The position numbers and the translations under genes were made by a program. The notes beneath the pieces are model-generated. The model made no database searches, had not been told where the DNA came from, and saw only the letters and a program-made list of their open reading frames with translations. A DNA stretch of 35,127 bases from Deltaproteobacteria bacterium. GTDB lineage: Bacteria; Desulfobacterota; Binatia; UBA9968. The DNA lies in assembly GCA_016874755.1 (NCBI GenBank), contig VGTH01000054.1, positions 1 through 35,127 of the forward strand, given 5' to 3'. Every line of letters starts with the position of its first letter. The first letter of the stretch is position 1. Positions 8,822 through 24,011 of this stretch are shown here, in pieces.

Positions 8822-9070
8822 CAAACCCCATTGCGCTTGTCTATTGCGTATAACGCGGATAAAACACATGGCGGACAATTTCACGTGTCTCGTTCTCTGA
8901 TTGACTCCTTGTCCGAGAAAGTTTTATAGCTGCGGTGGATGGCAAGCCGCCGGTTCGAAGCAAAAAGATAGGAGAGAACTTACGGTCAAGTCTCTTATGA
9001 CTTTATTCCTTCAAACAGTCATTATTCTGTTAGATATTTGACTTTCCCCAGCCTGATAAGGAGGTTTGAA

Positions 9071-10135
9071 ATGCCTGTCGTGGACGTGGATACGCACATA
9101 GATGAACCTGAGGAAGCATGGGCGACTATGGATGGTCCTGCTGCTCGTTTTCGTCCGATTACGGTGACACCGCCAGCGGGCACCGAAGCACCCGGATTCA
9201 GCTCTGCGGCCAGCCGTTGGTGGCTGGTTGACGGACGGCTACGGCAAAGAATGATTCGCGATGACAAATCGACGGGTACTACTCTGGAGTCACGCGAACT
9301 GCTTGACGTTCGCGTTCGTCTTGAACACATGGATCGTTCGGGAGTTGATATCCACGTGATTTACCCGACGTTTTTCTTACAATACATCACAGGCAATCCC
9401 GAAGTAGAAGTAGCGCTGGCTAAAAGCTATTGCCAATATTTGGCTCGCAAGTGCTCCGAATCAAAAGGTCGTCTGCGGTGGGTCGCAGTTTTGCCTTTTT
9501 TGGATATGGATGCGTCTGTCGAACTCCTACGTTGGGCGAAAGATAACGGCGCATGTGGCGTGTTCAAGAAGGGGATAGAGCACCGAAAGCGAGCAAGCGA
9601 CCCGTACTTCTTCCCTATATACGAAGAAGCCAGCGCTCTCGGCTTACCCATTTGCGTACATACCGGTTTTGGGAATCCACCCGATGGGCCGGTCATTGGT
9701 CATGGTGATGGTCTGACTGGGCTGCCCGTCATGGATGCGTTTCATGCCCTAGTTTTATACAACATCCCGCAAAAGTTTCCGAACTTACGTTTTGGCTTTC
9801 TGGAGTCTGGTTCCACCTGGCTGCCTTATGTGATTGACCGACTGAAGGCCGAGAAAGAAAGGCGTCATTGGATACGACAATTCGACCTTGGGTCTGAGTT
9901 ATTTAGGTCTAATCGTTTTTTCGTCGCGATCGACCCTATAGAAGATATCTCTCATGTTCTTGCTCTTGGGGCTGAGGATAATTTGATGATTGGTAGTGAC
10001 TACACCCACTTTGATACTTCCGCCCAACCAGATGCATTACAACAAGTGCACCAATGGGTTGAGCAAGGTAGAATTAGCGAGACGGTTGCTCGCAAGATAT
10101 TGGCAGACAACCCTTCGGCTTTCTACGGTTTTTAA
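9071..10135 (+). CDS. Amidohydrolase family 2 (ACMSD-like) protein
   Basis: This 354-residue protein is a metal-dependent hydrolase/decarboxylase of the amidohydrolase_2 group. Seen motifs are VDVDTHIDEP (strand-1 metal site, in the D-x-H form), VHTGFG (third-strand His), FGFLESGSTWLPYVIDRLK and MIGSDYTHFD, with the catalytic Asp. ARKILADNPSAFYGF is the usual C-terminal signature (I-L..N....Y). Such proteins decarboxylate or hydrolyse aromatic or related acids. The start is ATG 9071 behind AAGGAGG; a frame 11 codons longer lacks support. Its codon use looks slightly more AT-rich than its neighbours by eye, so separate acquisition is possible. A mobile-element remnant abuts its 3' end. Confidence 0.88.
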   Translation: MPVVDVDTHIDEPEEAWATMDGPAARFRPITVTPPAGTEAPGFSSAASRWWLVDGRLRQRMIRDDKSTGTTLESRELLDVRVRLEHMDRSGVDIHVIYPTFFLQYITGNPEVEVALAKSYCQYLARKCSESKGRLRWVAVLPFLDMDASVELLRWAKDNGACGVFKKGIEHRKRASDPYFFPIYEEASALGLPICVHTGFGNPPDGPVIGHGDGLTGLPVMDAFHALVLYNIPQKFPNLRFGFLESGSTWLPYVIDRLKAEKERRHWIRQFDLGSELFRSNRFFVAIDPIEDISHVLALGAEDNLMIGSDYTHFDTSAQPDALQQVHQWVEQGRISETVARKILADNPSAFYGF

Positions 10136-10176
10136 GCTTTCCCGATTGAGACTTACCGATTGGGTTTGTCGAAGTC

Positions 10177-10473
10177 TGGATAGGATTTTTAAACCACCTT
10201 TTCTATGGCCGGAGCTATAGGGGAGAGCCGGCAGAATTGTCAATCGCTTTTCTGGTTGACGAAGAAATCACTAGCATAGCGGTCGGCTCGGCCGGAAAGC
10301 GGCCAGGAGAGGCGCGAAAGGTTGCTCTACGCGACGCTCGGTCGAGGTCCGGGCAAGCGATACCGTGGGCTTCGTTGTTGCAGCACGAGCGGGCCGGTGC
10401 GATTACGTTTGAGCCGTTCGTTGACGATGGCCGGCCGCTTGATGTAGCGGCACAGCTGCTGTAGATGCGCGCT
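10177..10473 (-). mobile_element. IS91/ISCR-like transposase fragment with promoter and terminus (copy B)
   Basis: The minus strand encodes QLCRYIKRPAIVNERLK and then PLVLQQRSPRY (10473-10360), a well-known central block of IS91-family transposases. A deletion then joins it to a shared C-terminal piece (NLSRLSWPLSGRADR*, then DFFVNQKSD and a stop). This is followed by TTGACA, an 18-bp spacer and TATAGC, and a terminus near 10178. It points into the 3' end of the amidohydrolase gene, so any transcript would be antisense to it. The hairpin GGCCG-GAAAG-CGGCC lies at 10290-10304. Confidence 0.7.
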
Positions 10474-10498
10474 CGGCGTCTCCTGCTTTAGTGTTGTC

Positions 10499-10526
10499 TT
10501 GCATAAACTGTTGCGAACCATATAAG
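10499..10526 (+). promoter_or_regulatory. Candidate promoter of the DapA-family gene
   Basis: TTGCAT, a 16-bp spacer and TATAAG (10521-10526) lie 49 bp before ATG 10575. The -10 box is good and the -35 box is fair. Confidence 0.4.
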
Positions 10527-10574
10527 CTCGCCCGTGAGCTTGATAATCGAATAGCCCCACGAGGAGAGCACTTC

Positions 10575-11483
10575 ATGGCGACAAAGTTCCGCGGCATCTA
10601 CATTCCTTTGATCACAGTATTTCATGACGATGGTGAAGTTGATTACAAAGCGACCGAGGAAGTTATCGAGTTCATGATCAACGCCGGTGTGCATGGCTTT
10701 TTTGTTTTGGGGTCGACGGGCATGGGCCCAGTCATGACGACCCAGCAACGGATCGAAACGGCGGAATTCGTCGTCAAGCGGATTAACCGGCGCCGGCCGG
10801 TCATTCTTCATGTCGGAGCTGCCGACTATCAAACCACAATGCAGCTCGCCCAACATGGCGATAAGCTCGGGGTCGATGCCATCGGCATCGTTCCGCCATA
10901 CTATTTCAGCGACCATACTCCGTGGGAAATCTTCGAACACTACAAGGGCGTTGCCAAGGCGATCAGTAGCCCGATTTTTCTCTATGACAACGAAAAGTAC
11001 TCTGGGTTTAAATTTACACCGGAGCTGGCAAAAAAACTCAAGGATGAAGTACCCAGTCTGTGCGGCATGAAAGCGAGCTATTATCCCCAGGCATTGCTGC
11101 TGGCGTATCTCGGCGCAATGCCCAAGGACTTTTCCGTGTTCTCCGGCAACACGATCGATTTGTTTCCCGCCGCGCCCCAGGGTTTATGCGGCGCGATTCC
11201 GCCGCCGACCGCTCATATTCCGGAGGTGATTGTCGCGCTTTGGAACGCTCTAGAAGCTAAGAAATATGACGAAGCGGCGGCGCTGCAAAAAAAGGCCGAC
11301 GACTATGGTCGAACCGTGGTGCGACTGGGAATGCGTTTCGGTAGAACCGTGCATCGGGATGCATTTCGACTGCGAGGGCTCAATGTCAAACGCTACCCGC
11401 GCTGGCCGGCGGAAGAATTGAGCGCCGAAGCAACCGCAACGCTGACAGCGGCGTTGACGGCAACCGGCGTCACGAGCCGCTGA
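10575..11483 (+). CDS. DapA/NAL-family (dihydrodipicolinate synthase-like) aldolase
   Basis: This 302-residue TIM-barrel protein belongs to the class I aldolase family of dihydrodipicolinate synthase and N-acetylneuraminate lyase. The pyruvate-carboxylate loop reads GSTGMG (46-51) in place of the usual G-T/S-T-G-E, so the Glu is replaced by Met. The Schiff-base lysine is K166 in CGMKAS and the catalytic Tyr is Y137 in FLYDN. The loop change argues against true lysine biosynthesis and for a catabolic lyase or dehydratase of the family. The start is ATG 10575 behind GAGGAGAG; the frame extends 28 codons further upstream without a site. A converging VOC gene follows. Confidence 0.88.
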   Translation: MATKFRGIYIPLITVFHDDGEVDYKATEEVIEFMINAGVHGFFVLGSTGMGPVMTTQQRIETAEFVVKRINRRRPVILHVGAADYQTTMQLAQHGDKLGVDAIGIVPPYYFSDHTPWEIFEHYKGVAKAISSPIFLYDNEKYSGFKFTPELAKKLKDEVPSLCGMKASYYPQALLLAYLGAMPKDFSVFSGNTIDLFPAAPQGLCGAIPPPTAHIPEVIVALWNALEAKKYDEAAALQKKADDYGRTVVRLGMRFGRTVHRDAFRLRGLNVKRYPRWPAEELSAEATATLTAALTATGVTSR

Positions 11484-11500
11484 GTAGCAATCGATCTTAC

Positions 11501-11525
11501 CGGCATCGCCGCAACCGCGATGCCG
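11501..11525. terminator. Stem-loop between convergent genes
   Basis: A perfect 9-bp inverted repeat (CGGCATCGC / GCGATGCCG, 7-base loop) lies in the 60-bp gap between the convergent DapA-family and VOC genes. It has no T-run, so it would be a factor-dependent or barrier hairpin. Confidence 0.4.
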
Positions 11526-11543
11526 CTGCGCCGATCCGGTTCT

Positions 11544-12005
11544 TTATTTGTCCGCCGATCGGGAGGCTCCCGCGGGGTTTTCCGCTTGCGGAGTCGGCTG
11601 CTGGGGTGGCGCCAGGTCCCAACCTTTGGATGACACATCGAATATGACTCGGTTGGGCCCGCGGTACTTGAGCTCGAAATAGAAATTGTGACCCGACCCC
11701 GCCGCCTCACCTAGACGTTCCGCATCCGTGTCTTCTAGAACATGGGCGGCTGCGTCGATATCCTCTACGTGAAAACCCAGGTGATGCAGGCCTTCGTAGG
11801 AAACTCCGCCTTCCATATCTGCCGCCTCGTCGGTGGGAAAGTTCAGGAAAGCGAAGTTAATATGCCCGTCCGTAAGAAACACACCGCCGCCGCGGGGTGA
11901 AGTGGGCACACGCTTGATAAACTGAAGCCCGAAGACTTTCTGATAGAAAGCCGCGGTTTTCTCGGGGTCCTTGGTCGCGATGGCAATGTGACGAAGCCGC
12001 GCCAT
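11544..12005 (-). CDS. VOC-family (glyoxalase/dioxygenase-fold) protein
   Basis: This 153-residue protein has two beta-alpha-beta-beta-beta modules of the vicinal oxygen chelate superfamily. It opens with RLRHIAIATKDPEKTAAFY (H6 is the first metal-ligand position) and the second module begins HHLGFHVEDID (H75 region), followed by FYFELKYRGPN with Glu111. The C-terminal 25 residues are a Pro/Ala-rich tail. Members are lyases, epimerases, isomerases or dioxygenases, and the exact reaction cannot be read here. The start ATG 12005 has an ideal AGGAGGT. It is the last gene of a three-gene operon, 25 bp after the diiron-type protein. Confidence 0.85.
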   Translation of the reverse strand: MARLRHIAIATKDPEKTAAFYQKVFGLQFIKRVPTSPRGGGVFLTDGHINFAFLNFPTDEAADMEGGVSYEGLHHLGFHVEDIDAAAHVLEDTDAERLGEAAGSGHNFYFELKYRGPNRVIFDVSSKGWDLAPPQQPTPQAENPAGASRSADK

Positions 12006-12030
12006 ACTACCTCCTATAAGGTCAAATCGT

Positions 12031-12750
12031 TTACGATGTAAAGTAATTCTCGTCGCGAATCGCGTGGGTCAATCCGCCAAGAAAAACGCGCCAGTAATCG
12101 AAGGATTCTTTGGATGCATCGACAATCCCCAACCAGTCTTCTTCCGACTTGGCGTATTTTTCCAAAAGTCCCATGGTTTCACTCTTATGATCTGAATCAG
12201 CTTCGCGATGGACGCGGAAATTAGGAATCTGGTCAGGAGACAAACCCAAGTCTTCAATCCAACGCTTCTCTGCACGCGTCTGATGCGCCCCGCCGGGAAT
12301 GATCTTGTCCATGTTGACGCGTTCCAGAACGGAAACCCCTCCGAGGGCCTGGACCCAAGGACGATAGATGGCTAGGTACGTCCACCCGGCCAATGCGGCG
12401 CGCGTAGTGGGCAGCGGTTCTGCGTTGATAACTTCTTCGGCCGTTAATCCGACCGCCTTGCCGTGGACCACCCAAAGACTGTAATGATCAGAATCGCAGC
12501 GTGGATCTCGGATAATCTCTTCGGCTTCATGCATCAGTAGCGCCCGGCGGGCATCGAGATATGGTGACCGGGCAATTAAGTAGGTCCATGCGGGTCTGCG
12601 ATTTTTGACGAACAGTCCAAACTGTTGAGCGATAATCTGGGCACGCCTCCGGGTAAGCTGCGTCTCAAGAAATCCGTGGACTTCGCTGGTGCGAAAAAGT
12701 TCACGGGTCATCTCGTTCAGAACTTCGTCATATTTGGTTGCTAAACTCAT
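12031..12750 (-). CDS. Heme-oxygenase-like (PqqC/TENA-type) putative diiron protein
   Basis: This 239-residue all-alpha protein fits the heme-oxygenase-like superfamily that holds PqqC, TENA/THI-4, CADD and the HDO-type diiron oxidases. Candidate metal ligands are the Glu and His residues of LMHEAEEII and SDHYSLW in the first half, and the H-x3-D-x2-H pattern in VHREADSDHKSE near residue 180. Members of the HDO group oxidise or cleave small amines and fatty or amino acids using O2. It lies between an NMT1-like SBP gene (15 bp upstream) and a VOC gene (25 bp downstream), all on the minus strand. A role in the metabolism of the imported ligand is likely. Start ATG 12750 follows AGGAAAGG. The substrate is unknown. 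Confidence 0.8.
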   Translation of the reverse strand: MSLATKYDEVLNEMTRELFRTSEVHGFLETQLTRRRAQIIAQQFGLFVKNRRPAWTYLIARSPYLDARRALLMHEAEEIIRDPRCDSDHYSLWVVHGKAVGLTAEEVINAEPLPTTRAALAGWTYLAIYRPWVQALGGVSVLERVNMDKIIPGGAHQTRAEKRWIEDLGLSPDQIPNFRVHREADSDHKSETMGLLEKYAKSEEDWLGIVDASKESFDYWRVFLGGLTHAIRDENYFTS

Positions 12751-12765
12751 ACTACCTTTCCTGTA

Positions 12766-13761
12766 TCAGCGGTAAAGCGACGCAATGAATCCATCTCGTT
12801 CCATTTCGTCGACAAAGCGCATGTCAATGACTTGCTCGAACGACAATTTTCCAGCCTGAGGGTTAAGGGTTCTTATGCCGTCGGACAATAGAGTGAATGC
12901 CCTGTTGGAGATCCGCTGCGACCGCGGAAGTTTTTCCGCGAAAAAATCATAAGTCGCTTTGACCACTTCAGCATCCTCAATGCGCAGATACTTGCGCAGG
13001 ATCGCTTGGGTCTCCTTCGGGTTGCGCTTGAAAAACGCTATCGCTTCGGTCCAAGCCTGCACGAAGCGTTTGACCTCACCGAAGTTGCTTTGGATTCGCG
13101 CACGCGTCGTAATCACAGAACTGTTGGGGTAATCGCCAAATTCGCGCACGTCCAATAATACTGAGAGACCATCCTTTTCCGCTCTAAACAAACTTGGCGG
13201 TGAAAGTACCGTGGCAGTCATCCCGCCCGGGATACTCAGCGACTGAACGCGCTGCGCCGTGTTTCCGGCAACGATGACCGTCATGTCTCGCTCCGCGAGT
13301 CCGAGTTTTTCGAGCGCGAGACGAACTGAAAGATGATTGTTGCCGCCGTACGCGGCCACCCCGACAGTTCCTCCCTTCAGTTGTCTTGGGTCGCGTATTT
13401 CCTTTCGCGCGACAAACTTGTAGGAAAATCCGAACTCCGAGGTCCCCAGAACCACCAAACCGCCGCCTTGGGCATTCGCCGTCATTACGCTCTGAAGTGC
13501 GGTTTGCGCATACTGAAAGCTGCCAGCGATCAACCCCACCGTGCTCTGAGCACCGCGGGTTAACACGGTCTCAATATCGAAGCCGTATTTTTTGCCGATC
13601 GGGGTGGACTCTAAAATCCATATGGGGAGATTAAACCCGGCGGTCCCGTCATAGGATGCCTGAATCTTGGTAAGAGTCTGAGCGTGACCAACGACTGGGA
13701 CGAGCAACCAAGCGAGTCCCACAATAAATTGCGCCGCTGTCGCCAAAGTGAAAAAGTTCAC
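12766..13761 (-). CDS. NMT1-like ABC solute-binding protein
   Basis: This 331-residue periplasmic binding protein begins at GTG 13761, six bases after GGAGGT; the 12 codons upstream have no site. A signal peptide (AAQFIVGLAWLLVPVVGHAQ) is followed by the mature start KIQASYDGTAGFNLPIWI, a Gly-rich turn (KGGTVGVAAYGGNNHLSVRLAL) and the C-terminal IDMRFVDEMERDGF typical of this SBP subgroup. It is the first gene of an operon with the diiron-type and VOC proteins. An IS91/ISCR-like end (copy C) with an outward promoter lies about 105 bp upstream and may drive the operon. No permease is linked. Confidence 0.87.
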   Translation of the reverse strand: MNFFTLATAAQFIVGLAWLLVPVVGHAQTLTKIQASYDGTAGFNLPIWILESTPIGKKYGFDIETVLTRGAQSTVGLIAGSFQYAQTALQSVMTANAQGGGLVVLGTSEFGFSYKFVARKEIRDPRQLKGGTVGVAAYGGNNHLSVRLALEKLGLAERDMTVIVAGNTAQRVQSLSIPGGMTATVLSPPSLFRAEKDGLSVLLDVREFGDYPNSSVITTRARIQSNFGEVKRFVQAWTEAIAFFKRNPKETQAILRKYLRIEDAEVVKATYDFFAEKLPRSQRISNRAFTLLSDGIRTLNPQAGKLSFEQVIDMRFVDEMERDGFIASLYR

Positions 13762-13865
13762 TGCACCTCCGCTGCTCGCACAACTGCTGCTCCGCAAGCA
13801 CTCAGTTACTCAACCTAGGTAGTCGAGTCAATAGACAATAGCTTGAGCTTGGCTAGCCCGAGAGT

Positions 13866-13945
13866 CCGTGTAGGAATTTCAAACGCGCTTTTCTATGACC
13901 CAGAGCCATAGCGCAGGACCGCAAGAGATGTCAATTCGGTTTATG
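13866..13945 (-). promoter_or_regulatory. IS91/ISCR-like end with outward promoter (copy C)
   Basis: On the minus strand the sequence keeps the transposase stop (HKPN then TGA), TTGACA (13934-13929), an 18-bp spacer, TATGGC (13910-13905), and the terminus CGTTTGAAATTCCTACACG at about 13886-13868. The terminus is the best match in the window to an ISCR-type oriIS. The promoter points at the SBP-diiron-VOC operon whose start codon is about 144 bp downstream of the -10 box. Confidence 0.6.
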
Positions 13946-13974
13946 CCGGAGAGTTAGTCAAGTCAGTCTAAGGA

Positions 13975-14047
13975 TGTCCCTCTTGTGGGTCCTCGGATTG
14001 GCCGCCGAGCCGAAGCGCTGGATCAGCGTGACTATGCCGGTGTCGGC
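13975..14047 (-). pseudogene. IS91-family transposase fragment (RFG motif)
   Basis: The minus strand encodes TGIVTLIQRFGSAAN, the strongly conserved IS91 transposase segment that precedes the His-x-His catalytic block. Here the following part has decayed to PRTHKRDIL. It lies between the carrier-domain remnant and copy C, on the same strand. Confidence 0.65.
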
Positions 14048-14062
14048 TCGGCTAACAGTCGC

Positions 14063-14240
14063 CTAGCGGCGCCGCTTTCCCTCACTGAGCAGTTTTTGTG
14101 CCTCTTCTTCCGGCAACGCTTCGATCTCGCTAAATAGCCGATCGAGATCCTTGGCTGCGGCTTCGTGCTCGGAACCTATGACCGCGGCCAACTCGCCAAC
14201 GGTTGGATACTCGAACATGCGCTGGCGCGCGGCTCTGGGA
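14063..14240 (-). pseudogene. C-terminal tail of an NRPS/PKS carrier domain
   Basis: The frame ending at 14063 encodes MFEYPTVGELAAVIG (from 14218), followed by an acidic helix (LFSEIEALPEEEAQKLLSE) and a basic end. This is how the last carrier (PCP/ACP) domain of modular NRPS or PKS proteins closes: helix 4 (FE.PTV..LA..I), then L...E.L...EA..LL. The Ser-bearing helix and the rest of the megasynthase are absent, and the frame upstream switches into IS91 sequence. It is a dead fragment, probably carried or left by a mobile element. Confidence 0.6.
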
Positions 14241-14520
14241 TGGACGCTATGGCTTGGCTCGGCAGGCTTTGCAAGCTCACCACTTTCCGCCCAGCGCGTG
14301 GGCCGAGCGCAATACGATAAGTGCACGAGGCGACTTGCAGAGTCTTGAGCGCTCCGTCGGTCTCGGTTTCGGCGAGATAGGTCTGGTCTGGTTCTTCGAT
14401 GAGAGCGCCCAAGCGCGTCAGTAAGCGCATGACGCGCTGGGTAATCTTGGCGAGTAGACCTTCAAGCTCTTCCACTGCGGGAGGTGCCGCCTCGTGGAAG
14501 ACTGCTGCACCATAAATTTA
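14240..14520 (-). pseudogene. IS91-family transposase middle fragment
   Basis: The minus strand encodes YGAAVFHEAAPPAVEELEG, LLAKITQRVMRLLTRLGALI and TYRIALGPRAGRKVVSLQS. These are the linker and following helical region of IS91 transposases, where A(C)TYRIALGPRAG(Q/R)KV is a hallmark. A stop or frame change at both ends shows it is a fragment. From 14520 to 14656 I see only a C-rich stretch with repeated TGGA/CCTTGG words and no gene. Confidence 0.7.
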
Positions 14521-14656
14521 TTCACCCTTTTTGCCCTCCGATTAAACGCGCCGCTCGAACAAGTTCCGTGGGGCTCCAAGGGTCGAAAGCCGCCAAACAC
14601 CTGGAACCGCTGGAGCCCTTGGCACCCTTGGAACATGGGCCGTCAGGCGCACCGCG

Positions 14657-15637
14657 CTACGGAATAAACATCACATCGATCACCTTCATCGCCTCTTTCG
14701 GAAAGATGCCCATCTCGGTGCTTTCGCGCAGATAGCGCTTCTCGATATCGAGATTGGCTTTGTCCGGCCAGGGGAAGTTGGGCGGCAGGAAGAACTCCTT
14801 GCTGCGGAACCAACCAAGCTTCAACTCCTCCGGCGATTCCAGACCGAAGAGGCGCTTGGCGTTCTTCATGAAATGGGCTTCGTCGGCTTGCACGCCGTTG
14901 ATCATCTCCTGCCAGGCGGCGCGCAACTTGGGAATCAGCGGCTTATTCTGCGCCGCCCAGGTGTCCACCGTACCGAGCCAGCCGAGCATTTTCACTTTGG
15001 TCTTGAGAATCCGGTTCATCTCGTCGCGCGGCGTGAGTAGGACTCGGTACTTGCCGGTGGCGAGCAGCTTCGACGCGTGGGCTTCCCAACTGTAGCCGGC
15101 TTCCACTTCGCCGCGCTCCAGCGTCGCGCTGATGCCGGCGGCGCCGAGTTTCTTCAATTGAAAAAACTTTTCGATCTGGATGCCCTCTTTGCGCATCATG
15201 TAATCGAACTGGTTGTACGCCGAGGTGATTTCGGGCGGCAGCGCAAAGGGTTTGCCCTGCAAGTCCTTAAGAGTTTTGTACGGCGCATCCCGGCGCACGA
15301 GAATCGAATTGTGCGGCGTCTGATAGGGTTGGATCAGCCTGAGCTTGATATCGCTTAGATTCGCCCGCACAGCCGACTCGGCGGTGGCAATGCCCAGCGG
15401 CACGGTGCCGAGGGCCACGAGCTTCTCCGATTCGGCCAGCGCCGCCCAGCGCGGCTTCATGACGAAGCCATGCTTGCGGTCGATGCCCTTGTCGACGACA
15501 TATTGGCCGCCCAGGCCGAACATGCCGTCTTCCGGCAGCGCCACTTCCACTATGGGCAGCTCCGCCTGACCGGCGCGCGCCACGCCGTGCGCCCCCAGAG
15601 CCAAAAAAACAACCAGCGCGAAGAAGAATCGACTCAT
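14657..15637 (-). CDS. ABC transporter solute-binding protein (SsuA/NMT1-like)
   Basis: This 326-residue periplasmic protein has a signal peptide (RFFFALVVFLALGAHGVARA). Motifs include FGLGGQYVVDKGIDRKHGF in the first lobe, the hinge-side LKDLQGKPFALPPEITSAYN, and ERGEVEAGYSWEAHASKLL. It is the binding component of the one complete ABC system in this window. Its ATG overlaps the stop of the ATPase gene by 4 bp (ATGA), so the two are translationally coupled. The substrate is unknown; the SsuABC/TauABC group imports sulfonates, nitrate, thiamine precursors or aromatic acids. Confidence 0.88.
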   Translation of the reverse strand: MSRFFFALVVFLALGAHGVARAGQAELPIVEVALPEDGMFGLGGQYVVDKGIDRKHGFVMKPRWAALAESEKLVALGTVPLGIATAESAVRANLSDIKLRLIQPYQTPHNSILVRRDAPYKTLKDLQGKPFALPPEITSAYNQFDYMMRKEGIQIEKFFQLKKLGAAGISATLERGEVEAGYSWEAHASKLLATGKYRVLLTPRDEMNRILKTKVKMLGWLGTVDTWAAQNKPLIPKLRAAWQEMINGVQADEAHFMKNAKRLFGLESPEELKLGWFRSKEFFLPPNFPWPDKANLDIEKRYLRESTEMGIFPKEAMKVIDVMFIP

Positions 15638-16413
15638 GACATCACCTCGTTTCCTTCCATGAGTTGGAGAACCGTGTTGAGCAGTTTTTTCTTGAACTGA
15701 ATAAACTCCGCGTCGTCGACATCGCGCTGGCCCGGCGCCATCGGATTGTCGAAGATCTCGACGATACGCGCCGGGCGCGCGCGCAGTATAACGATGCGGT
15801 CGCCCATGTAAGCCGCTTCCTCGACATCGTGGGTGACCATCACCGTGGTCTGCTTGAGTTTGGCGCAGATCGCCAGCGATTCTTCACGCAGCCGGCGTGC
15901 GGTCAATTGATCGAGCTTGCTAAACGGCTCGTCCATCAAGAGAACTTCCGGCTCGATCACCAAGCCGCGCGCCAGACCAACGCGCTGGCGCATGCCGCCG
16001 GAGAGATAAAGCGGAAACTGATTGCGGAACTCAGCCAAACCGACGAGATCGAGATATTTACTGAGCCGCTCCGGCCACTCGGCCTGGGGAATCTGCATTC
16101 CTTTCAACGCGAAGCTCAAGTTCTGCTCGACGGTTTTCCAGTTGAGCAGCCGGGCGTCTTGGAACACGTAACCAAGCCGGGCATCGCCCGTGGAAGCTTT
16201 GCCCTTGCCGATCACGTCCACCAGGCCGCCGTCGAGTTTTTCCAGTCCGGAAATGGCATTGAGCAGCGTCGATTTGCCGCAACCGGACGGACCGAGCAGG
16301 CAAGTGATGCCGAATTCCTTGGTATCGAATGAAACCCGGTCGAGCACGAGCATGTCCGACCCGTCTTCGCGGGAGAAATACTTGACCGCATTGTCGACAT
16401 GCACGTAGGCCAT
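15634..16413 (-). CDS. ABC transporter ATP-binding protein (SsuB/TauB-like)
   Basis: This 259-residue nucleotide-binding subunit has every functional motif: Walker A GPSGCGKST (41-49), Q-loop Gln85, signature LSGGM (137-141), Walker B LLMDEP (Asp161, Glu162), D-loop SKLD and H-loop His195 in VTHDVEEA. It would power the permease encoded upstream. The start at ATG 16413 is preferred over a TTG nine codons earlier; AAAGGGAT lies about ten bases upstream. The gap of about 195 bp to the permease gene holds a large inverted repeat, unusual within an operon. Confidence 0.92.
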   Translation of the reverse strand: MAYVHVDNAVKYFSREDGSDMLVLDRVSFDTKEFGITCLLGPSGCGKSTLLNAISGLEKLDGGLVDVIGKGKASTGDARLGYVFQDARLLNWKTVEQNLSFALKGMQIPQAEWPERLSKYLDLVGLAEFRNQFPLYLSGGMRQRVGLARGLVIEPEVLLMDEPFSKLDQLTARRLREESLAICAKLKQTTVMVTHDVEEAAYMGDRIVILRARPARIVEIFDNPMAPGQRDVDDAEFIQFKKKLLNTVLQLMEGNEVMS

Positions 16414-16434
16414 GGTTATCGGGATCCCTTTCAG

Positions 16435-16527
16435 CACCAAGGCACGAAGGACACGAAGTTAGGAAAAAGACTTTTTAATTGGCTCTCTCGTCTTTTCTTC
16501 TCTTCGTGCCTTCGTGCCTCCTTGGTG
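16435..16527. repeat. Imperfect inverted repeat (about 25-bp arms) within the ABC operon
   Basis: The left arm (16435-16458, CACCAAGGCACGAAGGACAC...) is complementary to the right arm (16502-16527, ...TTCGTGCCTCCTTGGTG) with a 2-base bulge and one mismatch, enclosing about 43 bp. A second word, CCCTTCGACTTCGCTCAGGG (16565-16584), lies just upstream on the transcribed strand. Both resemble intergenic words that I recall from many uncultivated-bacterium genomes. It may act as a transcript hairpin between the permease and ATPase cistrons. Confidence 0.6.
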
Positions 16528-16608
16528 GTGAAACGTTCCTTTCCGAACTTTGCGCCCTCTGCGTCCCTTCGACTTCGCTCAGGGCAGGCTTTGCGCGAGT
16601 GACTCCGA

Positions 16609-17472
16609 TTATCTTCGCCAGGCTTCCAGCTTGGGCCGCCAGCGCGTGACCCGGCCCTCGAGCCAGCCGATGAAGCCAAATTCGATCACGATCATCACGA
16701 TCAGAAACGTAATCGCCCAGGCGAGCACCTGCTTCATCGAAAAAACATTAAAGCCGCGCACCACTTGATAACCGACGCCGTTGCTAAAGCCGAACATCTC
16801 GACCACCACGACGACCTTCCAGGCCAGGCCCAAACCGTAGCGAATCGCCGCAAGAATGTGCGATACCAGCTGCGGCAGAATCACATCGACGATTTTCGAC
16901 CAGATGCCGGCGTGAAAGGCCGTGCTCATGTCGAGCAAGTCTTTGTCGATGGATTTCGTTCCCTGCCACAGACTGATTGCGAGCATCGGCATGATCGTCA
17001 CCGCCACCGCCGCATAGGCGCTGGTCTCCGACAGGCCGAAAAACATGATCGCCATCACCGCCCAAACCAGCCCGGGCATGGTCAAACCGAGAATCACCGG
17101 CGACTCGAAGAAACTCTCGAACCATTTGATCGTGCCCATGAGAATGCCAAGCGGAATCGCGATCAGCATGGCGATGCCGAAGCCGACGCCGACGCGGCGC
17201 AGCGTCGCGCCCATCTCGGCAAAGAACTGGCCGCTCGTCATGATCGACACCACTTCGTTGAAGGTGCTCGACGGCAGCGGGATGAGACTCGGTGGAAAGA
17301 ACAACGTCAATATCCACCAGATCGCGATCATGGCAGCGATCGAGATCGCCCTCAAGGCAAGCGTCCGAACGGCCGCGCCCGATGCGCCCCTTTTCCTGGG
17401 CGCGGCCACCTCGGTCGATGCAGTGGAGAGTGCACCTCCTGGGATCGCCACGCTCTCTTCTTCGGGAGCCAT
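16609..17472 (-). CDS. ABC transporter permease (SsuC/TauC-like)
   Basis: This 287-residue membrane protein has about six hydrophobic helices (starting ALRAISIAAMIAIWWILTLF) and the EAA-type loop near DMSTAFHAGIWSKIVDVILPQ, which contacts the ATPase. It is of the SsuC/TauC type of binding-protein-dependent permeases. I prefer ATG 17472 to ATG 17514, because a good promoter (TTGACA-N17-TAAATT) lies between them. With that start the mRNA would have a leader of only a few bases, consistent with the lack of a ribosome-binding site. The ATPase and SBP genes follow on the same strand. Confidence 0.85.
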   Translation of the reverse strand: MAPEEESVAIPGGALSTASTEVAAPRKRGASGAAVRTLALRAISIAAMIAIWWILTLFFPPSLIPLPSSTFNEVVSIMTSGQFFAEMGATLRRVGVGFGIAMLIAIPLGILMGTIKWFESFFESPVILGLTMPGLVWAVMAIMFFGLSETSAYAAVAVTIMPMLAISLWQGTKSIDKDLLDMSTAFHAGIWSKIVDVILPQLVSHILAAIRYGLGLAWKVVVVVEMFGFSNGVGYQVVRGFNVFSMKQVLAWAITFLIVMIVIEFGFIGWLEGRVTRWRPKLEAWRR

Positions 17473-17479
17473 AATGGAG

Positions 17480-17511
17480 CGCAATTTATTGCGTTCGCCT
17501 GCGGGTGTCAA
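17480..17511 (-). promoter_or_regulatory. Promoter of the ABC permease gene with overlapping palindrome
   Basis: The minus strand has TTGACA (17511-17506), a 17-bp spacer and TAAATT (17488-17483). The -10 box lies inside the perfect palindrome CGCAAT-AA-ATTGCG (17480-17493), whose arms also occur at 4489-4502. A repressor bound there would block the promoter. The start codon follows the -10 box by about ten bases. Confidence 0.6.
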
Positions 17512-17712
17512 CATAGTCTGCGACTTTCAGAGCATTCTTTGCCGCAACCCAGAACGCTACCGTTCATCGGAACATTGTGCATCGCGATAGTACGGACAGG
17601 TCGCGACCTATCCCTACGGCTCAGAGGCACAAATCATCGTCTTTGCCGCGCAAGATCTCCTGATGGGCGGCGCGACGCCGATGCTCGCCGCGGTGATGAA
17701 CGGCGCGGAGAT

Positions 17713-17752
17713 TCGTATAGGAATTGCAAACGCCCTTTTCTATGACCCAGGG
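17713..17752 (-). repeat. Partial IS91/ISCR-like end (copy D)
   Basis: The minus strand shows CTGGGTCATAGAAAAGGGCG then TTTGCAATTCCTATACG, the terminus block of the family, ending near 17713. The promoter and transposase tail are missing. It lies about 200 bp upstream of the permease gene. In the rest of 17515-18010 I see no gene. Confidence 0.5.
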
Positions 17753-18010
17753 CGAGGGCATGGCGAATCAGCAGCCGCCGTGCACTATGCCCTGTAATAA
17801 TTTGGCGAAGATAGCATGGAGTCGGGACGCACCCCGGGAGCGAGGCATGCGTACTTGACTGAATTGACAAACTCAAGGCCAACCGCGCCAGGTTAACGAG
17901 TTAGTCAATTTGGTCAAGGATGCCCCAAAGAGGCTCCCCATATTGTTCGCTTTGCTCTGTATTTCGAAGATGCATCGATTCCAAATTCCAGCGAATAGAT
18001 CGCTTGCCGA

Positions 18011-19540
18011 CTACTTCTTCACCGCCATCTCGATGGCGTACACTCCTGAGTCGGGCAGTGGTTTGTAATCGACGCGGTTGTTCAAACCCCAGAGTAGCTT
18101 GTGGCGCCAGAGGAAGCATGCGGGCGCCTCTTCGGTGATGATGCTCATCGCTTGCGAGAGATACTGGCGGCGCTTCTTGGGGTCGAACTCCTGCTGTTCT
18201 TGATCGAGCAGCTCATCGACTTTTGGATTCGAGTAGCCGATGCGCGGCGTTTCGCCGGTGCGAAAGTATTGGTGCAGCGGGCCGCTCGGGTCCTGGATGG
18301 AGCCGCGGCCAATATAATAGAAAGGTGCCGCGCCGCGCTGCACGTTGGCCCAGAGCGTCGCCCACTCCGGCGTCGCAAGCTTGGCGCGGAAACCGACGGC
18401 ATTGAGCATGGGAATCACCGCTTCGCTGACCTGTTTGTCGAGGGTATAGCGACCCACGGGAGTTTGCAGCTCGACATCGACGCCGCCGGCGTGGCCCGCC
18501 TGGGCCAAAAGCTTTCTCGCTCTCTCCGGGTCGTAGTTTAGCTTAGGCTTCAAGTTGGGATCGTAGCCGTATTGCCCGGGACCGAGGGGGCCGTCGAGAC
18601 GGCTGGCGAATCCCTCCAGCAAAGTCGCGATAATCTGATCGCGATTGATCGCATGGCAGACCGCCTGCCTGACTTCCTTTTTGTCGAAGGGTGGCTTGGG
18701 CTGCATGGCGAGAAACATGATCTCGATGGAGTCTATGGCGCTGATGCGGAGGTTGTTGTTCTTCTCAACCCGGTGGCGCATATGAGGCGGGACAAACTGC
18801 GCGATCTGGATCTCATCGTTGAGCAGAGCCGTGACGCGCTGCTCGGGCTCGCGCATGATGCGATAGACGACTTCGTCGGGGGCGCGCGGATTTTTCTTAG
18901 CTTCTGGGTGGTCTGGCCGCTTCTGCAGCACCAGGCGCTGGCCAGGAATCAGCTCTTTTAACCGATAGGGACCGCCGCCCATCATATGCTCTCGGTCGGC
19001 AACGTCCCGTCCATACTTGTCGAAAGCCGCTTTGCTGGTGACGATCAAACGGTCGCAGAGAAATGACAGCAGCGGCGCGGTGGGTTTATCGGTAGTAATC
19101 TTGACCGTGAATCTGTCGATCGCCTCGACCTTGGCTATAGACGGCGCCACAGCGACTTTCTGTTTTGACTGTGGATCGGCCATGACCCGGTTGAGCAGCG
19201 AGTGCACCACGTCGTCAGCGGTGACCGGTGAGCCATCATTGAACCTGTAGTTCTTGTTTATGTAAAAGATCCAGGTTGTCGGATTCTCAATCTTCCATCG
19301 TTCCGCCAGGCGCCCTTCAAAGTCCGCTTTGGCATAGTTGTAGGCGCAGAACGGGCCGGTGACTTCGCTCCACACGCTGTACATCAGCCGCACGCTGTCG
19401 CCGTAGGGATTGTGGGTCTCGATGGTTTCAGTAACGCCGACGGTCACCCGGGTCTGGGCGTCGACGGGGTTGCTGCTGCCCAGTAGAGAAGCGAGTGCCG
19501 AGAGGGCGATCAGCAGCCATTGTTTTTTGCGCCAAATCAT
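18011..19540 (-). CDS. Peptide/nickel-type ABC solute-binding protein (SBP_bac_5)
   Basis: This 509-residue family-5 solute-binding protein (DppA/OppA/NikA type) has a signal peptide (KQWLLIALSALASLLGSSN...VDAQ). Family hallmarks include LAERWKIENPTTWIFYI, YRFNDGSPVTADDVVHSL (the F.DG.P.TA.DV signature), GPYRLKELIPGQRLVLQK and VRQAVCHAINRDQII. It would bind peptides, opines or nickel chelates. The start is ATG 19540 behind GGAGGT; the frame reads 38 codons further upstream only because it crosses the inserted element end. That end (copy E) stops 24 bp before the ATG and offers a promoter. No transporter genes are adjacent. Confidence 0.9.
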   Translation of the reverse strand: MIWRKKQWLLIALSALASLLGSSNPVDAQTRVTVGVTETIETHNPYGDSVRLMYSVWSEVTGPFCAYNYAKADFEGRLAERWKIENPTTWIFYINKNYRFNDGSPVTADDVVHSLLNRVMADPQSKQKVAVAPSIAKVEAIDRFTVKITTDKPTAPLLSFLCDRLIVTSKAAFDKYGRDVADREHMMGGGPYRLKELIPGQRLVLQKRPDHPEAKKNPRAPDEVVYRIMREPEQRVTALLNDEIQIAQFVPPHMRHRVEKNNNLRISAIDSIEIMFLAMQPKPPFDKKEVRQAVCHAINRDQIIATLLEGFASRLDGPLGPGQYGYDPNLKPKLNYDPERARKLLAQAGHAGGVDVELQTPVGRYTLDKQVSEAVIPMLNAVGFRAKLATPEWATLWANVQRGAAPFYYIGRGSIQDPSGPLHQYFRTGETPRIGYSNPKVDELLDQEQQEFDPKKRRQYLSQAMSIITEEAPACFLWRHKLLWGLNNRVDYKPLPDSGVYAIEMAVKK

Positions 19541-19563
19541 CACGACCTCCAAAAGAATGAATC

Positions 19564-19760
19564 GCCGTATAGGAATTTCGAATCTCAATCCTCTTTCTGC
19601 AGCCCAGAGCCATATCGCGGGACCGGGAGAGATGTCAATCCGGTTTGTGCTCATTGAAAAACCCGCTGGTGTCGCAGTCAGCTCGGCCGAAAAGCGGCTA
19701 GGAGAGGCGCGAAAGGTTCCTTGGGGCGACGCTGAGCAGCCGGGCCCAACTCATCCGCGC
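19564..19760 (-). mobile_element. IS91/ISCR-like remnant with outward promoter (copy E)
   Basis: The minus strand begins with APARMSWARLL, the IS91 transposase segment that precedes the CPxCG block. It then jumps to the shared tail (NLSRLS*PLFGRADC, FFNEHKPD and stop). TTGACA (19638-19633), an 18-bp spacer and TATGGC (19614-19609) follow, and then the terminus TTCGAAATTCCTATACGG ending at about 19564. The promoter points directly at the SBP_bac_5 gene, with a predicted leader of about 60 bases. Confidence 0.65.
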
Positions 19761-19850
19761 CGGCGCACCTTGTGCGTGCGCGCCCTCGCTTGAGATCTCG
19801 GCGGCACGCTCTGGCGGAGCGCGATCGCATCCAGACGCCGCCGCCAAAAC

Positions 19851-19937
19851 TCGTCTGGCGAACAGGCCGTAGTCCTTCGCCACAAAGATCGCCGTTTCGC
19901 GCTCGCTCAAGCTGCCGAAGGTGATAAGCAGCGAATG
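19851..19937 (-). pseudogene. N-terminal remnant of an NMT1-like solute-binding protein
   Basis: The minus strand encodes LLITFGSLSERETAIF then VAKDYGLFARR. This is the first strand and helix of NMT1-like SBPs, which usually read G....(E)..(I/P)..VA...GLF.K.GL. It breaks off after 30 residues into unrelated sequence and then into copy E. It lies about 90 bp downstream of the flavoprotein gene and could be the stump of an SBP gene destroyed by the element. Confidence 0.5.
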
Positions 19938-20025
19938 GGGTGGCACCGCCGCAGGCGACGGTGCCTTCGTAAACACCAAGAGAATCAGATTTGTCCCGAG
20001 CCGGAGCGCTGCCGTAGGCTCCTCG

Positions 20026-21495
20026 TCACAGTCCCTGCGCCGCCGCGTGGCGGCCCGCCAAACGGGAGAACACGGCGTTGCGCGTCTGCCCGGTGCAGGA
20101 GGGATAGTTATGAAAAAATAAGCCGACGATATCGCCGGAGGCAAACAGGCCGCGAATCGGCTGGCCGCCGGCGTTGACGACCTGGGCGTCGGCGTTGATC
20201 TCGACGCCGCCGAAGGTGAACGTAATGCCGCCGGTGACGGGAAAGGCTTGAAACGGCGGCTCGCTGATGCGCTCCGCCCAGTTGGACTTGCGTGGCGTGA
20301 TGCCGACCGTCGAGCGGCCGTCGGTTTTGGTAGCGTCGAAGGGCACATCGTCGCGCACCGCGTTGTTGAATTCCGTCACTGTGTGGGCGAGCACCGCCGG
20401 TTCGATGCCGATCTTCGCGGCAAGCTCGACGATGGTTGCCGCTTCGATGGGGTTGGCAAATTGATAGTAGCTTGTATCCTGCAGCGCCGCGCCTTTGCGA
20501 TCAAAAATCTGATAGGCCACGCCGCCCGGCTCGCTCAACACCGCCCAGCCGGTCTTCGCGTAAGTGTACGAGATATGCGCTTCCCCTTCGTCGAAGAAGC
20601 GCTGGCCCTGGGAGTTGACGGTTATGCCGAAAGTATAGCCGTAGCGGTTGGCCTTATTGCTCAGCTCCACGTCCGGAAAGGTCGCGTCGATGGGCGTCGC
20701 ATGGGCGCCCTGCCAGTGGCCGGAGGCTTTGCAGCCGAGCGCCAGCGCCATCTGCAAAACCTCGCCGGTGTCGTGGCGGCTGCCGCGCACTTTCATCAAG
20801 TCGGCGTTGGCGCCGAGATAGCGCGCGCGCATCTCGGGATTGGCCTGAAAACCACCGGCGCAGAGGATGACAGAACCGGCGCGGATCTCATATTCCTCGT
20901 TGGCGTCGGAGACGCGTACACCTTCGATGCGCCGGTCGTTGCCCAACAGCTCGCGCACGCGCGACTCGTAGCGAATCTCGACACCCAGCCGTGTCGCGAT
21001 GTCGCGCCATTGGTTCAACTGGCTGATGCCGCCGCCGATGCCGCCGGTGGGATGAATGACGATGCCCGGCTCGAAATAGAGCTTGCCGTCGATCTCCACA
21101 TGGCCGGCCGGCTCCCACTCGATGCCCAACTCGTCCATCCAATGGATCGCAGCGTTGGATTCCTTGACCAGCACTTCGGCGAGTTTCTTGTTGATGCGCC
21201 CGCGCGTCACCCGCATCAAGTCCGCGGTGAAATCCGCGGGGGAATAACCGGGCAAATGCAGCCGGTCGAATTCCGCCGCTGGCGTGTCGCGCAGAAAGCC
21301 GCGGATCTCCGATGCATCGGAGTAGACAAAACGAAAGCCAGTGTGCGAGAAGCGCGCGTTGCCGCCGAACTCCGGCTCCGGCGCTTTCTCCAACATCACG
21401 ACTTTGCGCGCGCCGGCTTGCTTGGCCGCCACCGCCGCTTCAAAGGCGGCGCTGCCGCCGCCGACCACGACCACTTGAATGTTTTCGACTTTCAT
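20026..21495 (-). CDS. FAD-dependent dehydrogenase, TcuA/fumarate reductase flavoprotein family
   Basis: This 489-residue flavoprotein has the N-terminal FAD-binding motif VVVGGGSAAFEAAVAA (G12-G14), the family segment GITVNSQGQRFFDEGEAH, and the C-terminal FAD closure ASGDIVGLFFHNYPSCTGQT...SRLAGRHAA. This is the layout of the tricarballylate dehydrogenase (TcuA) / soluble fumarate reductase group, which also includes ketosteroid dehydrogenases. It would oxidise or reduce a C-C bond next to a carboxylate or ketone. The start ATG 21495 has only a weak AAGAGCG site. It is 145 bp downstream of an NMT1-like SBP gene on the same strand, consistent with uptake and oxidation of the same compound. 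Confidence 0.85.
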   Translation of the reverse strand: MKVENIQVVVVGGGSAAFEAAVAAKQAGARKVVMLEKAPEPEFGGNARFSHTGFRFVYSDASEIRGFLRDTPAAEFDRLHLPGYSPADFTADLMRVTRGRINKKLAEVLVKESNAAIHWMDELGIEWEPAGHVEIDGKLYFEPGIVIHPTGGIGGGISQLNQWRDIATRLGVEIRYESRVRELLGNDRRIEGVRVSDANEEYEIRAGSVILCAGGFQANPEMRARYLGANADLMKVRGSRHDTGEVLQMALALGCKASGHWQGAHATPIDATFPDVELSNKANRYGYTFGITVNSQGQRFFDEGEAHISYTYAKTGWAVLSEPGGVAYQIFDRKGAALQDTSYYQFANPIEAATIVELAAKIGIEPAVLAHTVTEFNNAVRDDVPFDATKTDGRSTVGITPRKSNWAERISEPPFQAFPVTGGITFTFGGVEINADAQVVNAGGQPIRGLFASGDIVGLFFHNYPSCTGQTRNAVFSRLAGRHAAAQGL

Positions 21496-21640
21496 CGGTC
21501 GCTCTTTTCCCGCGAGCGCGAAGCTGCTAGCCGAATATTTGGTTGTGTCACGCCGCGCTAGCTCCTTCGTGGTGAAAACTAATGCTGTAGCATGCGCGAG
21601 CCGAGAACCAGATCACTTTGTGGTGATATCCGGCCGCGCT

Positions 21641-22657
21641 CTACCGTTTCTTGGTCACGCTGTGGATAAAGCCCGAGGTCTCCAGCTTGTGCACAAACGA
21701 GTCGTCGATCGCGTTTTCGATTTTCACGTCGGCCAGTTTGGAATTGATCGAGACGAGCAAACCATGCAGCCGCTTCATACCATCCACGGTGGGAATCGGC
21801 ACGCGCTCGTAGGAATTGACCACCGCGCTGTAGGCTTCTTCTGCCTCGCTGTTGTTGGACAACCGCAAGTTGGTCGCCAGGATCCGCATAACCGTTTCTT
21901 TGTTGGCGGGATCGAGCATGAAGGCAATCGCTTCGACCAGGCCTTTTATGTACCCTTCGATGACCTGCGGCTTGGCCGCGGCGATACGCCGCGTGGTCAC
22001 CATCATCGTCTGTGGCATAGTCACGCCGGAACCTTTGAAGTTGTACAGGATCGGAAAGCCCTTGTTGCCGTAGATGTCGCCCACCGAGCCGTTCAGCGTC
22101 GTACCATCGATGCTGCCGCTTTCGAGCGCCAGCCGGCGGTTGATTTCGGTACCGGAGATGGTGATAAAAGCGATCTTTGCCTGGTTGGGGTCGACGCCCA
22201 TGGTTTGCAGCGCCAAGAGCGCCACCAGATGCGAAGTCGCACCCGGGCCGCTGATGGCGAGCTTCTTGCCGCGCAGATCTTCTTTCCTCTTGATGTCCTG
22301 CCGCACGTTCAAGCGGTAGTCGAGCTTCTGAACGAAATTGGCAACGCCGATCACGTCGGCGCCGCCGGAGCTCGCATTGACCAGATGGCCGGGGCCGATC
22401 ACCGCCACGTCGATCTCGCCGGCGAGCAGCGCCGCCACCGCCAACGGCGAGCGCGGCATCAGGATATATTGCGTCTCGACGCCGTATTTTTTGAAAAGGC
22501 CGAGATGCCTGGCCACCCACACCGACGCCATGCTTTCGCTGGTGATGCTCGAGGCGAAATTGGAGCGAGCCTGGGCCCAGGAAGCGGCCGGGCCAACGAG
22601 CATGAATAGGAACGATGCCACCAGCGCTTGCCGCCCGCGCGAATTATTTTTCCGCAT
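21641..22657 (-). CDS. NMT1-like ABC solute-binding protein
   Basis: This 338-residue periplasmic protein has a signal peptide (RQALVASFLFMLVGPAASWAQA) and the family blocks VWVARHLGLFKKYGVE, LLAGEIDVAVIGPG, LRGKKLAISGPGATSHL and the C-terminal IDDSFVHKLETSGF. A TTG two codons upstream, closer to GAGGTGA, is an alternative start. It is followed by the TcuA-like gene. An IS91/ISCR-like end (copy F) with an outward promoter lies 104 bp upstream of the start. No transporter subunits are linked. Confidence 0.87.
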   Translation of the reverse strand: MRKNNSRGRQALVASFLFMLVGPAASWAQARSNFASSITSESMASVWVARHLGLFKKYGVETQYILMPRSPLAVAALLAGEIDVAVIGPGHLVNASSGGADVIGVANFVQKLDYRLNVRQDIKRKEDLRGKKLAISGPGATSHLVALLALQTMGVDPNQAKIAFITISGTEINRRLALESGSIDGTTLNGSVGDIYGNKGFPILYNFKGSGVTMPQTMMVTTRRIAAAKPQVIEGYIKGLVEAIAFMLDPANKETVMRILATNLRLSNNSEAEEAYSAVVNSYERVPIPTVDGMKRLHGLLVSINSKLADVKIENAIDDSFVHKLETSGFIHSVTKKR

Positions 22658-22760
22658 GCTCAATCACCTCGCGATGGGTTTTGGATTCCAGATTGCCAAT
22701 TCGATATTCCACGCATGGAGCAGTGTACGTTACGGCCAGCGATGCGAAAAAGCAATTCTG

Positions 22761-22945
22761 GGGATAGGAATTTCAAACCGCCTTTTTATGACCCGGAGTT
22801 ATGCCGGAGAGCCGGCGGAATTGTCAATCCCTTTTCTGGTTGACGAAAAAATCAGTGGCCTAGCGGTCGGCTCGGCCGGAAAGCGGCCAGGAAAGGCGCG
22901 AAACGTTCTTTGTGGCGCCGCTCGGTCGAGCTCAGACCGAGCGGC
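22761..22945 (-). mobile_element. IS91/ISCR-like 3' end with outward promoter (copy F)
   Basis: The minus strand encodes the shared tail (NVSRLSWPLSGRADR*, then DFFVNQKRD and stop). TTGACA (22827-22822), an 18-bp spacer and CATAAC (22803-22798) follow, then the terminus GGTTTGAAATTCCTATCC near 22761. It is the closest relative of copy B. A GGCCG-GAAAG-CGGCC hairpin lies at 22874-22888, and an inverted pair CGCCGCTCGGTCGAGCTC / GACCGAGCGGCGCC at its far end. Confidence 0.65.
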
Positions 22946-22982
22946 GCCGGTGAAAGTCCCCATCTAGCCGCGCGGAAAATTC

Positions 22983-24011
22983 TCATCGGTAGAGCCGGTC
23001 GATGTAGCCAGACTTGTCTAATTCTTCGAGCCAGCGCGTATCGACGAAATCCTTCGGGTCGGCGGTTTTCGCCGCCGGCAGTTGATCGACCAGGTCGTCG
23101 AGAATAGTTCTGATCCCGGCGAGCGACGGATACGGTTTTACCAGCGCCACTCGCTTCAATAATTGATAGGCCTCTTCCAACTCGCGCTCATCGTTCAAGC
23201 GCATATGCCGATTGATCGCCTTCTTGGCGGTCTCCGGTTGGGTGCGCATCAGGTGAATGCTGTCGACGAACGATTTCACGACGCGGCGGGTGATATCGGC
23301 ATTCTTATTCACGTATCGTTGCGTCGTCACCAGCCCCGTGTGCTGAAATGGAATGTTCATTTCTTCGAGGTTCGCCAACACGTTCATGCCCGCGTCGACG
23401 GCCTTCCTAAATCGCGGCGGCTGCAACAGCGTGGCGTCGACGGTTTTGCCGAGTAGCGCCGTCAGCAGCGTCGCTTCACTGCCGATCTGGAGAAACGTCA
23501 CGTCCTTGTCTGGGTTCACGCCCAACCGAGGCAACGCCAACCGCAGCGCGCGATCGAGCGCCGCGCCGAAGCGCGAGGTGCCGATCTTTTTGCCTTTCAA
23601 ATCGGCCGGGCTCTTGATCTCGGCGCGCGCCACCAGGCGAAACAGCAAGCGATCGACAAAACCCAACACCATCGTGACGTCCGCGCCCTGGAGCCGCGGC
23701 GCCGAGAGCAGGGCGCCCGTCATCTCGCCAAAGGAAATTTCGCCGGCAATCAGCGCGCGCTGCACCAGGGCGCTTTCGAGATAGAGCGCTTCGACTTCCA
23801 ATCCGTTGCGCGCAAACAGGCCGCCCTCCTGCGCGATCCACAGCGGCGCCATGGTCACCGACGGCGCGCCGTAGCCGATGCGCAGTTTGTCGGCGGCAAA
23901 GCTCAGCAACGGAGAAACGAAAAACATCAGAAGAGCGACGGCGCTTCTGGCGCATCTCTTGCAGCGGGTCCGAGACCGGCCCTTCGCTGTCAACGACAAA
24001 CCATCACGCAT
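22983..24011 (-). CDS. NMT1-like ABC solute-binding protein
   Basis: This 342-residue exported protein has a long basic N-terminus (KGRSRTRCKRCARS), a hydrophobic signal core (AVALLMFFVSPLLSFAA) and the blocks LWIAQEGGLFARNGLEVE, LIAGEISFGEMTGA, LKGKKIGTSRFGAALD and VDTRWLEELDKSGYI. It is the last gene of a probable four-gene operon, starting 15 bp after the radical SAM gene. The start ATG 24011 has GGGGGCGAG upstream. The ligand is unknown. Confidence 0.87.
   Translation of the reverse strand: MRDGLSLTAKGRSRTRCKRCARSAVALLMFFVSPLLSFAADKLRIGYGAPSVTMAPLWIAQEGGLFARNGLEVEALYLESALVQRALIAGEISFGEMTGALLSAPRLQGADVTMVLGFVDRLLFRLVARAEIKSPADLKGKKIGTSRFGAALDRALRLALPRLGVNPDKDVTFLQIGSEATLLTALLGKTVDATLLQPPRFRKAVDAGMNVLANLEEMNIPFQHTGLVTTQRYVNKNADITRRVVKSFVDSIHLMRTQPETAKKAINRHMRLNDERELEEAYQLLKRVALVKPYPSLAGIRTILDDLVDQLPAAKTADPKDFVDTRWLEELDKSGYIDRLYR

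Follow-up and report, generated by a model that had tools for sequence, protein, structure and literature searches.

The window, the whole 35,127-nt stretch of DNA analysed here, belongs to a genome assembly of 5.56 Mb in 101 contigs. We label its group Binatia-type after the record titles of the nearest named relatives of the SBP_bac_5 gene discussed below, which are Deltaproteobacteria, Candidatus Binatia or Syntrophobacter MAGs. This gene, encoding a peptide-type solute-binding protein (SBP), is read from the minus strand and follows a short leader, which in turn adjoins a copy of a 180-nt repeat (Table 1). The window holds several copies of this repeat; the focal one (19569-19753, minus strand) carries a 5-nt insert near its terminus that is absent from the other copies in alignment A1. 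Further upstream are a flavoprotein gene (20026-21495) and, next to it, an NMT1 SBP gene (21641-22657).

Table 1 Features of the SBP_bac_5 locus and the other repeat copies of the window.
Feature	Position	Strand	Remark
SBP_bac_5 (peptide-type solute-binding protein) gene, extra copy	18011-19540	-	Pfam PF00496, E 1.5e-72; second copy at G000:C6
Junction and leader with GGAGGT ribosome-binding site	19541-19568	-	
oriIS end of ISCR-type element (copy E), solo	19569-19753	-	Profile match to model 22-180, envelope to 19753; alignment A1
-10-like hexamer TATGGC, 18 nt from -35	19609-19614	-	TAT conserved in 26/27, 27/27 and 24/26 copies
-35-like hexamer TTGACA of putative outward promoter	19633-19638	-	24-27 of 28 copies agree at each position
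Fragments of the NMT1-type SBP gene located behind the flavoprotein gene in G004	19823-19952	-	Beside the element
TcuA-like FAD-binding protein (flavoprotein) gene	20026-21495	-	Conserved neighbour used for locus comparison
oriIS end, full length	22764-22943	-	107 nt before NMT1 SBP gene; -10 weakened to CATAAC
oriIS end, last 31 nt	17717-17747	-	Without promoter pair
oriIS end, truncated	13871-13947	-	110 nt before NMT1 SBP gene; TTGACA-N18-TATGGC
oriIS end, full length	10180-10359	-	Intact pair; faces 3' end of convergent gene
oriIS end, truncated	4063-4191	+	Intact pair; 347 nt before co-oriented gene

The sequence CCTATACGG terminates at 19565 on the minus strand, 24 nt upstream of the ATG at 19540, the distance given in an earlier note on this DNA. 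This ATG (or a GTG at 19543), with GGAGGT in front, is the likely start codon of the SBP_bac_5 gene. A longer open reading frame from 19654 was rejected as the start, as it would begin inside the element. The pair TTGACA-N18-TATGGC, which the same note had placed before the gene, is found on the minus strand at 19638-19633 and 19614-19609. Its -10-like hexamer lies 68 nt from the ATG, and not at the roughly 60 bases given earlier for the pair. Transcripts generally start about 7 nt past the -10, so that it is the predicted transcript start that falls about 60 nt before the ATG.

Transposase frames upstream of the copies, with their family matches, and a tail similar to that of ISCR1 and ISVsa3 identify the repeat as an ISCR-type oriIS end, from a rolling-circle element of the IS91 family. 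When the window and 14 stretches were searched iteratively with a profile, 32 copies were obtained at E ≤ 1e-3, the window itself contributing six. The 3' end of the repeat is sharp (..TTCCTAT) and its opposite end is variable. Directly upstream of several copies we found the C-terminus of a transposase (IEDPPVI.KILSHLGLPTRAPPRAPARR.DLFQTI type), whose stop is 41-42 nt ahead of the repeat in four cases. In L086, L139 and L090, a broken transposase is followed by a repeat copy within about 1 kb, and stop-free pieces of such broken frames beside copies match NCBIfam ISCR_clade_Ia with E-values of 1e-23 to 1e-24.

A related 464-aa transposase frame on contig C10, 88% identical to the L139 fragment and cut by the contig end, matches Y2_Tnp and Zn_Tnp_IS91. 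Against ISCR_clade_Ia (NF052416) it scores 439 bits (E 1.9e-131), below the curated cut-off of 925 bits, and is therefore taken as a relative of ISCR clade Ia and not filed as a member. In L158, the stretch at that contig end (G000:C10), the long open frame runs up to the end, as if a repeated element had broken the assembly. It suggests that the genome may contain a complete element; none with both ends was found in the sequences examined. Another IS91-type transposase frame, distinct from the first and matching Y2_Tnp, occurs at L137:1379-3363, minus strand, directly behind a frame that, judging by a motif, presumably resembles a tyrosine recombinase.

Around the matches we collected 72 distinct copies, identical repeats being counted once. 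The 3' end is retained in 62 of them, 38 of which are cut on the other side, and is missing from the remaining 10. A constant oriIS end opposite a variable one is the arrangement of IS91/ISCR rolling-circle elements. The tail differs from the ends of ISCR1 and ISVsa3 by 3 and 4 substitutions in 17 nt, respectively; a third record (L157) has no oriIS match within 4 substitutions, and a comparison of the repeat consensus with plasmids gave no DNA match.

The hexamer pair is more frequent than chance predicts. TTGACA-N16-18-TAT occurs five times in the window against 0.27 expected, a number reached in none of 100 shuffles, and four of the five sites fall within repeat copies. Genome-wide, TTGACA-N18-TATRGC is present 14 times, compared with 2 for the reversed control, and by coordinates 11 of the 14 sites are inside matches to the repeat model. 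A generic sigma-70 scan, which requires T at the last -10 position, misses the focal site and returns 7 sites versus 6.1 in shuffles; TATGGC agrees with TATAAT at 3 of 6 positions. The native -10 motif derived from 107 upstream regions is weak (TTGAC, 47 sense versus 33 antisense).

Both hexamers are conserved among the covering copies in the alignment of 32 (Table 1). Some spacer positions are nearly free and others are conserved, for instance one C in 28 of 28 copies; the tail is conserved too. Since this is also expected of a replication origin, the conservation pattern alone cannot separate a promoter from an origin function. In its sequence, a sigma-70-like pair pointing outward across oriIS corresponds to an outward promoter of the ISCR POUT type. 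The earlier proposal of an ISCR-type element end with an outward promoter thus holds for the type of oriIS and for the conserved, outward-facing promoter-like pair; that the pair is active we infer by analogy with ISCR1, where activity was measured.

The SBP_bac_5 gene has a second copy in its own genome (C6), 81% identical, with its own TTGACA pair and without the element. We inspected by eye the upstream stretches of 10 of 42 relative loci and of 8 stretches, 4 of which are the same records. All of these relatives, the C6 copy among them, have TTGACA ahead of the gene, followed by an A/T-rich hexamer. This -10-like hexamer was measured in six cases, where it is 36-52 nt before the start (for L140, the ATG at 47 and not that at 35 was used). 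The element was detected upstream of none of them, by BLAST in the ten loci or by the profile in the eight stretches. The earlier note had held that the same upstream sequence in genomes without the element would speak against it; the relatives without the element do not share that sequence. In the tree, the window gene stands beside the copy of G003 on a long branch, with a weak support of 0.70. A recent duplication of the C6 copy finds no support in this grouping, itself supported at only 0.70.

The flavoprotein and NMT1 genes are adjacent in G001 and G004 as well, where the flavoprotein is 88% identical, and at a G003 locus that has diverged further (74%) and is perhaps a paralog. Over the 9-19 kb compared in each, the matching loci of G001, G004 and G003 contain neither the oriIS end nor this SBP_bac_5 gene. 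In G004, the flavoprotein gene is followed by an NMT1-like SBP gene, whose product is 28% identical to the NMT1 protein of the window. Fragments of this G004 gene are recognizable beside the element, at 19861-19952 (84% over 92 nt) and 19823-19855 (85% over 33 nt).

As the relatives possess their own pair and the matching loci lack both gene and element, we regard the SBP_bac_5 gene as an extra copy joined to the element end without a native promoter. Judging by these comparisons, gene and element end are joined in a rearranged place. The claim that the upstream region of the gene had been replaced needs amending: the upstream sequence of the relatives is indeed absent, but it was not simply overwritten in place, the gene being an extra copy that is missing at the G001 and G004 loci.

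In its own genome, the repeat model has at least 37 matches at E ≤ 0.01, and at least 8 of 25 family genomes have matches at E ≤ 0.001; the best 146-150 candidates were scored per genome, so that all these numbers are minima and the lack of a match in the other 17 is no proof of absence. Two weak matches of the own genome at E ≤ 0.001 (C4:116106 and C2:128979) were left out of the copy stretches. Genes were predicted with a home-made codon model. Of the copies with a 3' end, 59 were counted and 3 of the 62 were dropped for having no called gene downstream in the stretch; a first census had dropped 1 of 29.

Most copies point at a nearby gene. Fifty of the 59 are co-oriented with the next gene, compared with 33.1 for random intergenic points in the same stretches (0 of 2000 draws reach the observed number). 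The start of a co-oriented gene is within 200 nt for 44 of 59, in 8 Binatia-type genomes (null 15.8, 0 of 2000 draws). Short matches could partly be native promoters, and for this reason the full-length subset matters: 15 of 22 full-length copies are near a gene start (null 6.2, 0 of 2000), and co-orientation alone is not significant among them (16 of 22, null 13.2, P = 0.16). The downstream proteins, 43 of which were scanned, are diverse, with NMT1 (4) and TctC (3) as the commonest families. At L084:1874-1943, a copy without the oriIS terminus still has TTGACA-N17-TATAGC, 67 nt before a co-oriented gene; it is a candidate for a promoter kept after decay of the element end.

Clinical resistance plasmids have provided the known examples of outward promoters at ISCR ends. 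According to PMC6218425, the ISCR1 promoters PCR1-1 and PCR1-2 at the oriIS end work in E. coli, 946 of 1127 sequences have the adjacent gene co-oriented with ISCR1, and outward promoters are also found in ISEcp1, IS1999 and other insertion sequences. PMC13393415 likewise states that ISCR ends have outward promoters. The present element resembles ISCR1 in its transposase (48% identical over 431 aa), its oriIS tail, a putative outward promoter just inside the end and the prevailing co-orientation of the adjacent gene. The position is also similar: by our own reading, PCR1-1 ends 16 nt before the tail AAAAAGG, and 12 nt separate the end of the pair from AAAAG in the copy at 13871. The hexamers differ, PCR1-1 being given in PMC6218425 as TAAACG-N17-TAAGAT, versus TTGACA-N18-TATRGC here. 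In contrast to ISCR1, the ends described here are solo and mostly truncated, chromosomal, from uncultured bacteria and placed before ordinary genes, with no tie to class 1 integrons. To ISVsa3/ISCR2 the likeness is in the transposase (50% identical over 427 aa) and the tail; no TTGACA-N18-TATRGC pair was seen in the ISVsa3/ISCR2 end inspected. ISEcp1 and IS1999 are similar by description only, as element ends supplying a full promoter to the next gene.

We consider it likely that a solo oriIS end with an outward sigma-70-type promoter (TTGACA-N18-TATRGC) serves the extra SBP_bac_5 gene, which lacks a native promoter, and that transcription most probably starts in the element. An ISCR-type rolling-circle element would have left the solo end behind. 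Rolling-circle movement or recombination between element ends, as follows from the family, would have brought the gene and the end together. The oriIS end would provide the promoter recognized by RNA polymerase, on which the gene would depend, and the gene would contribute its own ribosome-binding site; the transcript would thus begin inside the element, about 60 nt upstream of the ATG.

Another function for the same block, which we hold to be unlikely, is that TTGACA/TAT is conserved for the rolling-circle transposase at oriIS and is no working promoter, the SBP gene being either not expressed or transcribed by read-through from the flavoprotein gene. The tail and part of the spacer are indeed conserved as strongly as the hexamers, and the copy at 10180-10359 has no gene to drive, yet its pair is intact. 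Read-through into SBP_bac_5 is possible because the upstream flavoprotein gene is co-directional with it, and there is no excess of terminators (18 terminator-like sites in 9000-24000, versus 17.3 expected). However, copies near a co-oriented gene more often have the pair: 33 of 39 copies with an intact pair by our criterion are near and co-oriented, versus 11 of 20 without (Fisher 0.025, uncorrected and one of several comparisons). Moreover, the copy at L084:1874-1943 has lost the terminus and yet retains the pair before a gene, and in ISCR1 promoter activity was measured at a comparable position (PMC6218425). That the repeat is instead a regulatory region native to SBP genes which has been duplicated is very improbable. 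Several copies do precede SBP genes, as the NMT1 and TctC counts attest, but transposase remnants upstream of several copies largely refute this reading, and the ISCR-like tail, the diversity of downstream genes and the absence of the repeat from the relatives of the SBP gene all argue against it.

The closeness of copies to gene starts could also reflect an insertion preference of ISCR-type elements and not selection for promoters, an explanation that is plausible though somewhat doubtful, and under which the promoter may nonetheless be active. Closeness to gene starts is already seen among full-length copies, and co-orientation is not significantly commoner in truncated copies (33 of 36) than in full-length ones (16 of 22; Fisher 0.07). 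CCTAT is followed by AC in 31 and by CC in 12 of 49 copies, which would fit a preferred target, although these bases may belong to the element itself. Against a preference speak the overrepresentation of intact pairs among copies that are near and co-oriented with a gene, and the lack of any clear longer target word. In this group of uncultured bacteria, solo oriIS ends may, tentatively, have been co-opted as dispersed, ready-made promoters, with dozens of relics before unrelated transport and metabolic genes kept by selection after the death of the element.

Outward promoters of ISCR elements being already known, the novelty lies in the group of bacteria that hosts the element, in the TTGACA-N18-TATRGC design and in how many solo ends stand immediately before unrelated genes. 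No title found in an open-access library describes such ends in Binatia, which does not prove that none has been described. The general design known from the resistance plasmids recurs in the chromosomes of an uncultured group, in many decayed copies before ordinary genes. Rewiring of gene expression by rolling-circle element ends in nature becomes testable from sequence together with metatranscriptomes.

Elsewhere in the window, an apparent coding fragment (17600-17716, identified by eye) abuts the 31-nt oriIS remnant. No Rfam family matches the window at its gathering score, and a structured RNA in the focal copy was rejected, its fold z-score being +1.1. The full-length copy at 22764-22943 has a 14-bp perfect hairpin (22914-22948) in its inner part, just behind the expected end of the transposase gene, and its fold is better than that of any of 200 shuffles (z -3.9); the focal copy is without this hairpin. 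It may be the terminator of the transposase gene or a part of the origin.
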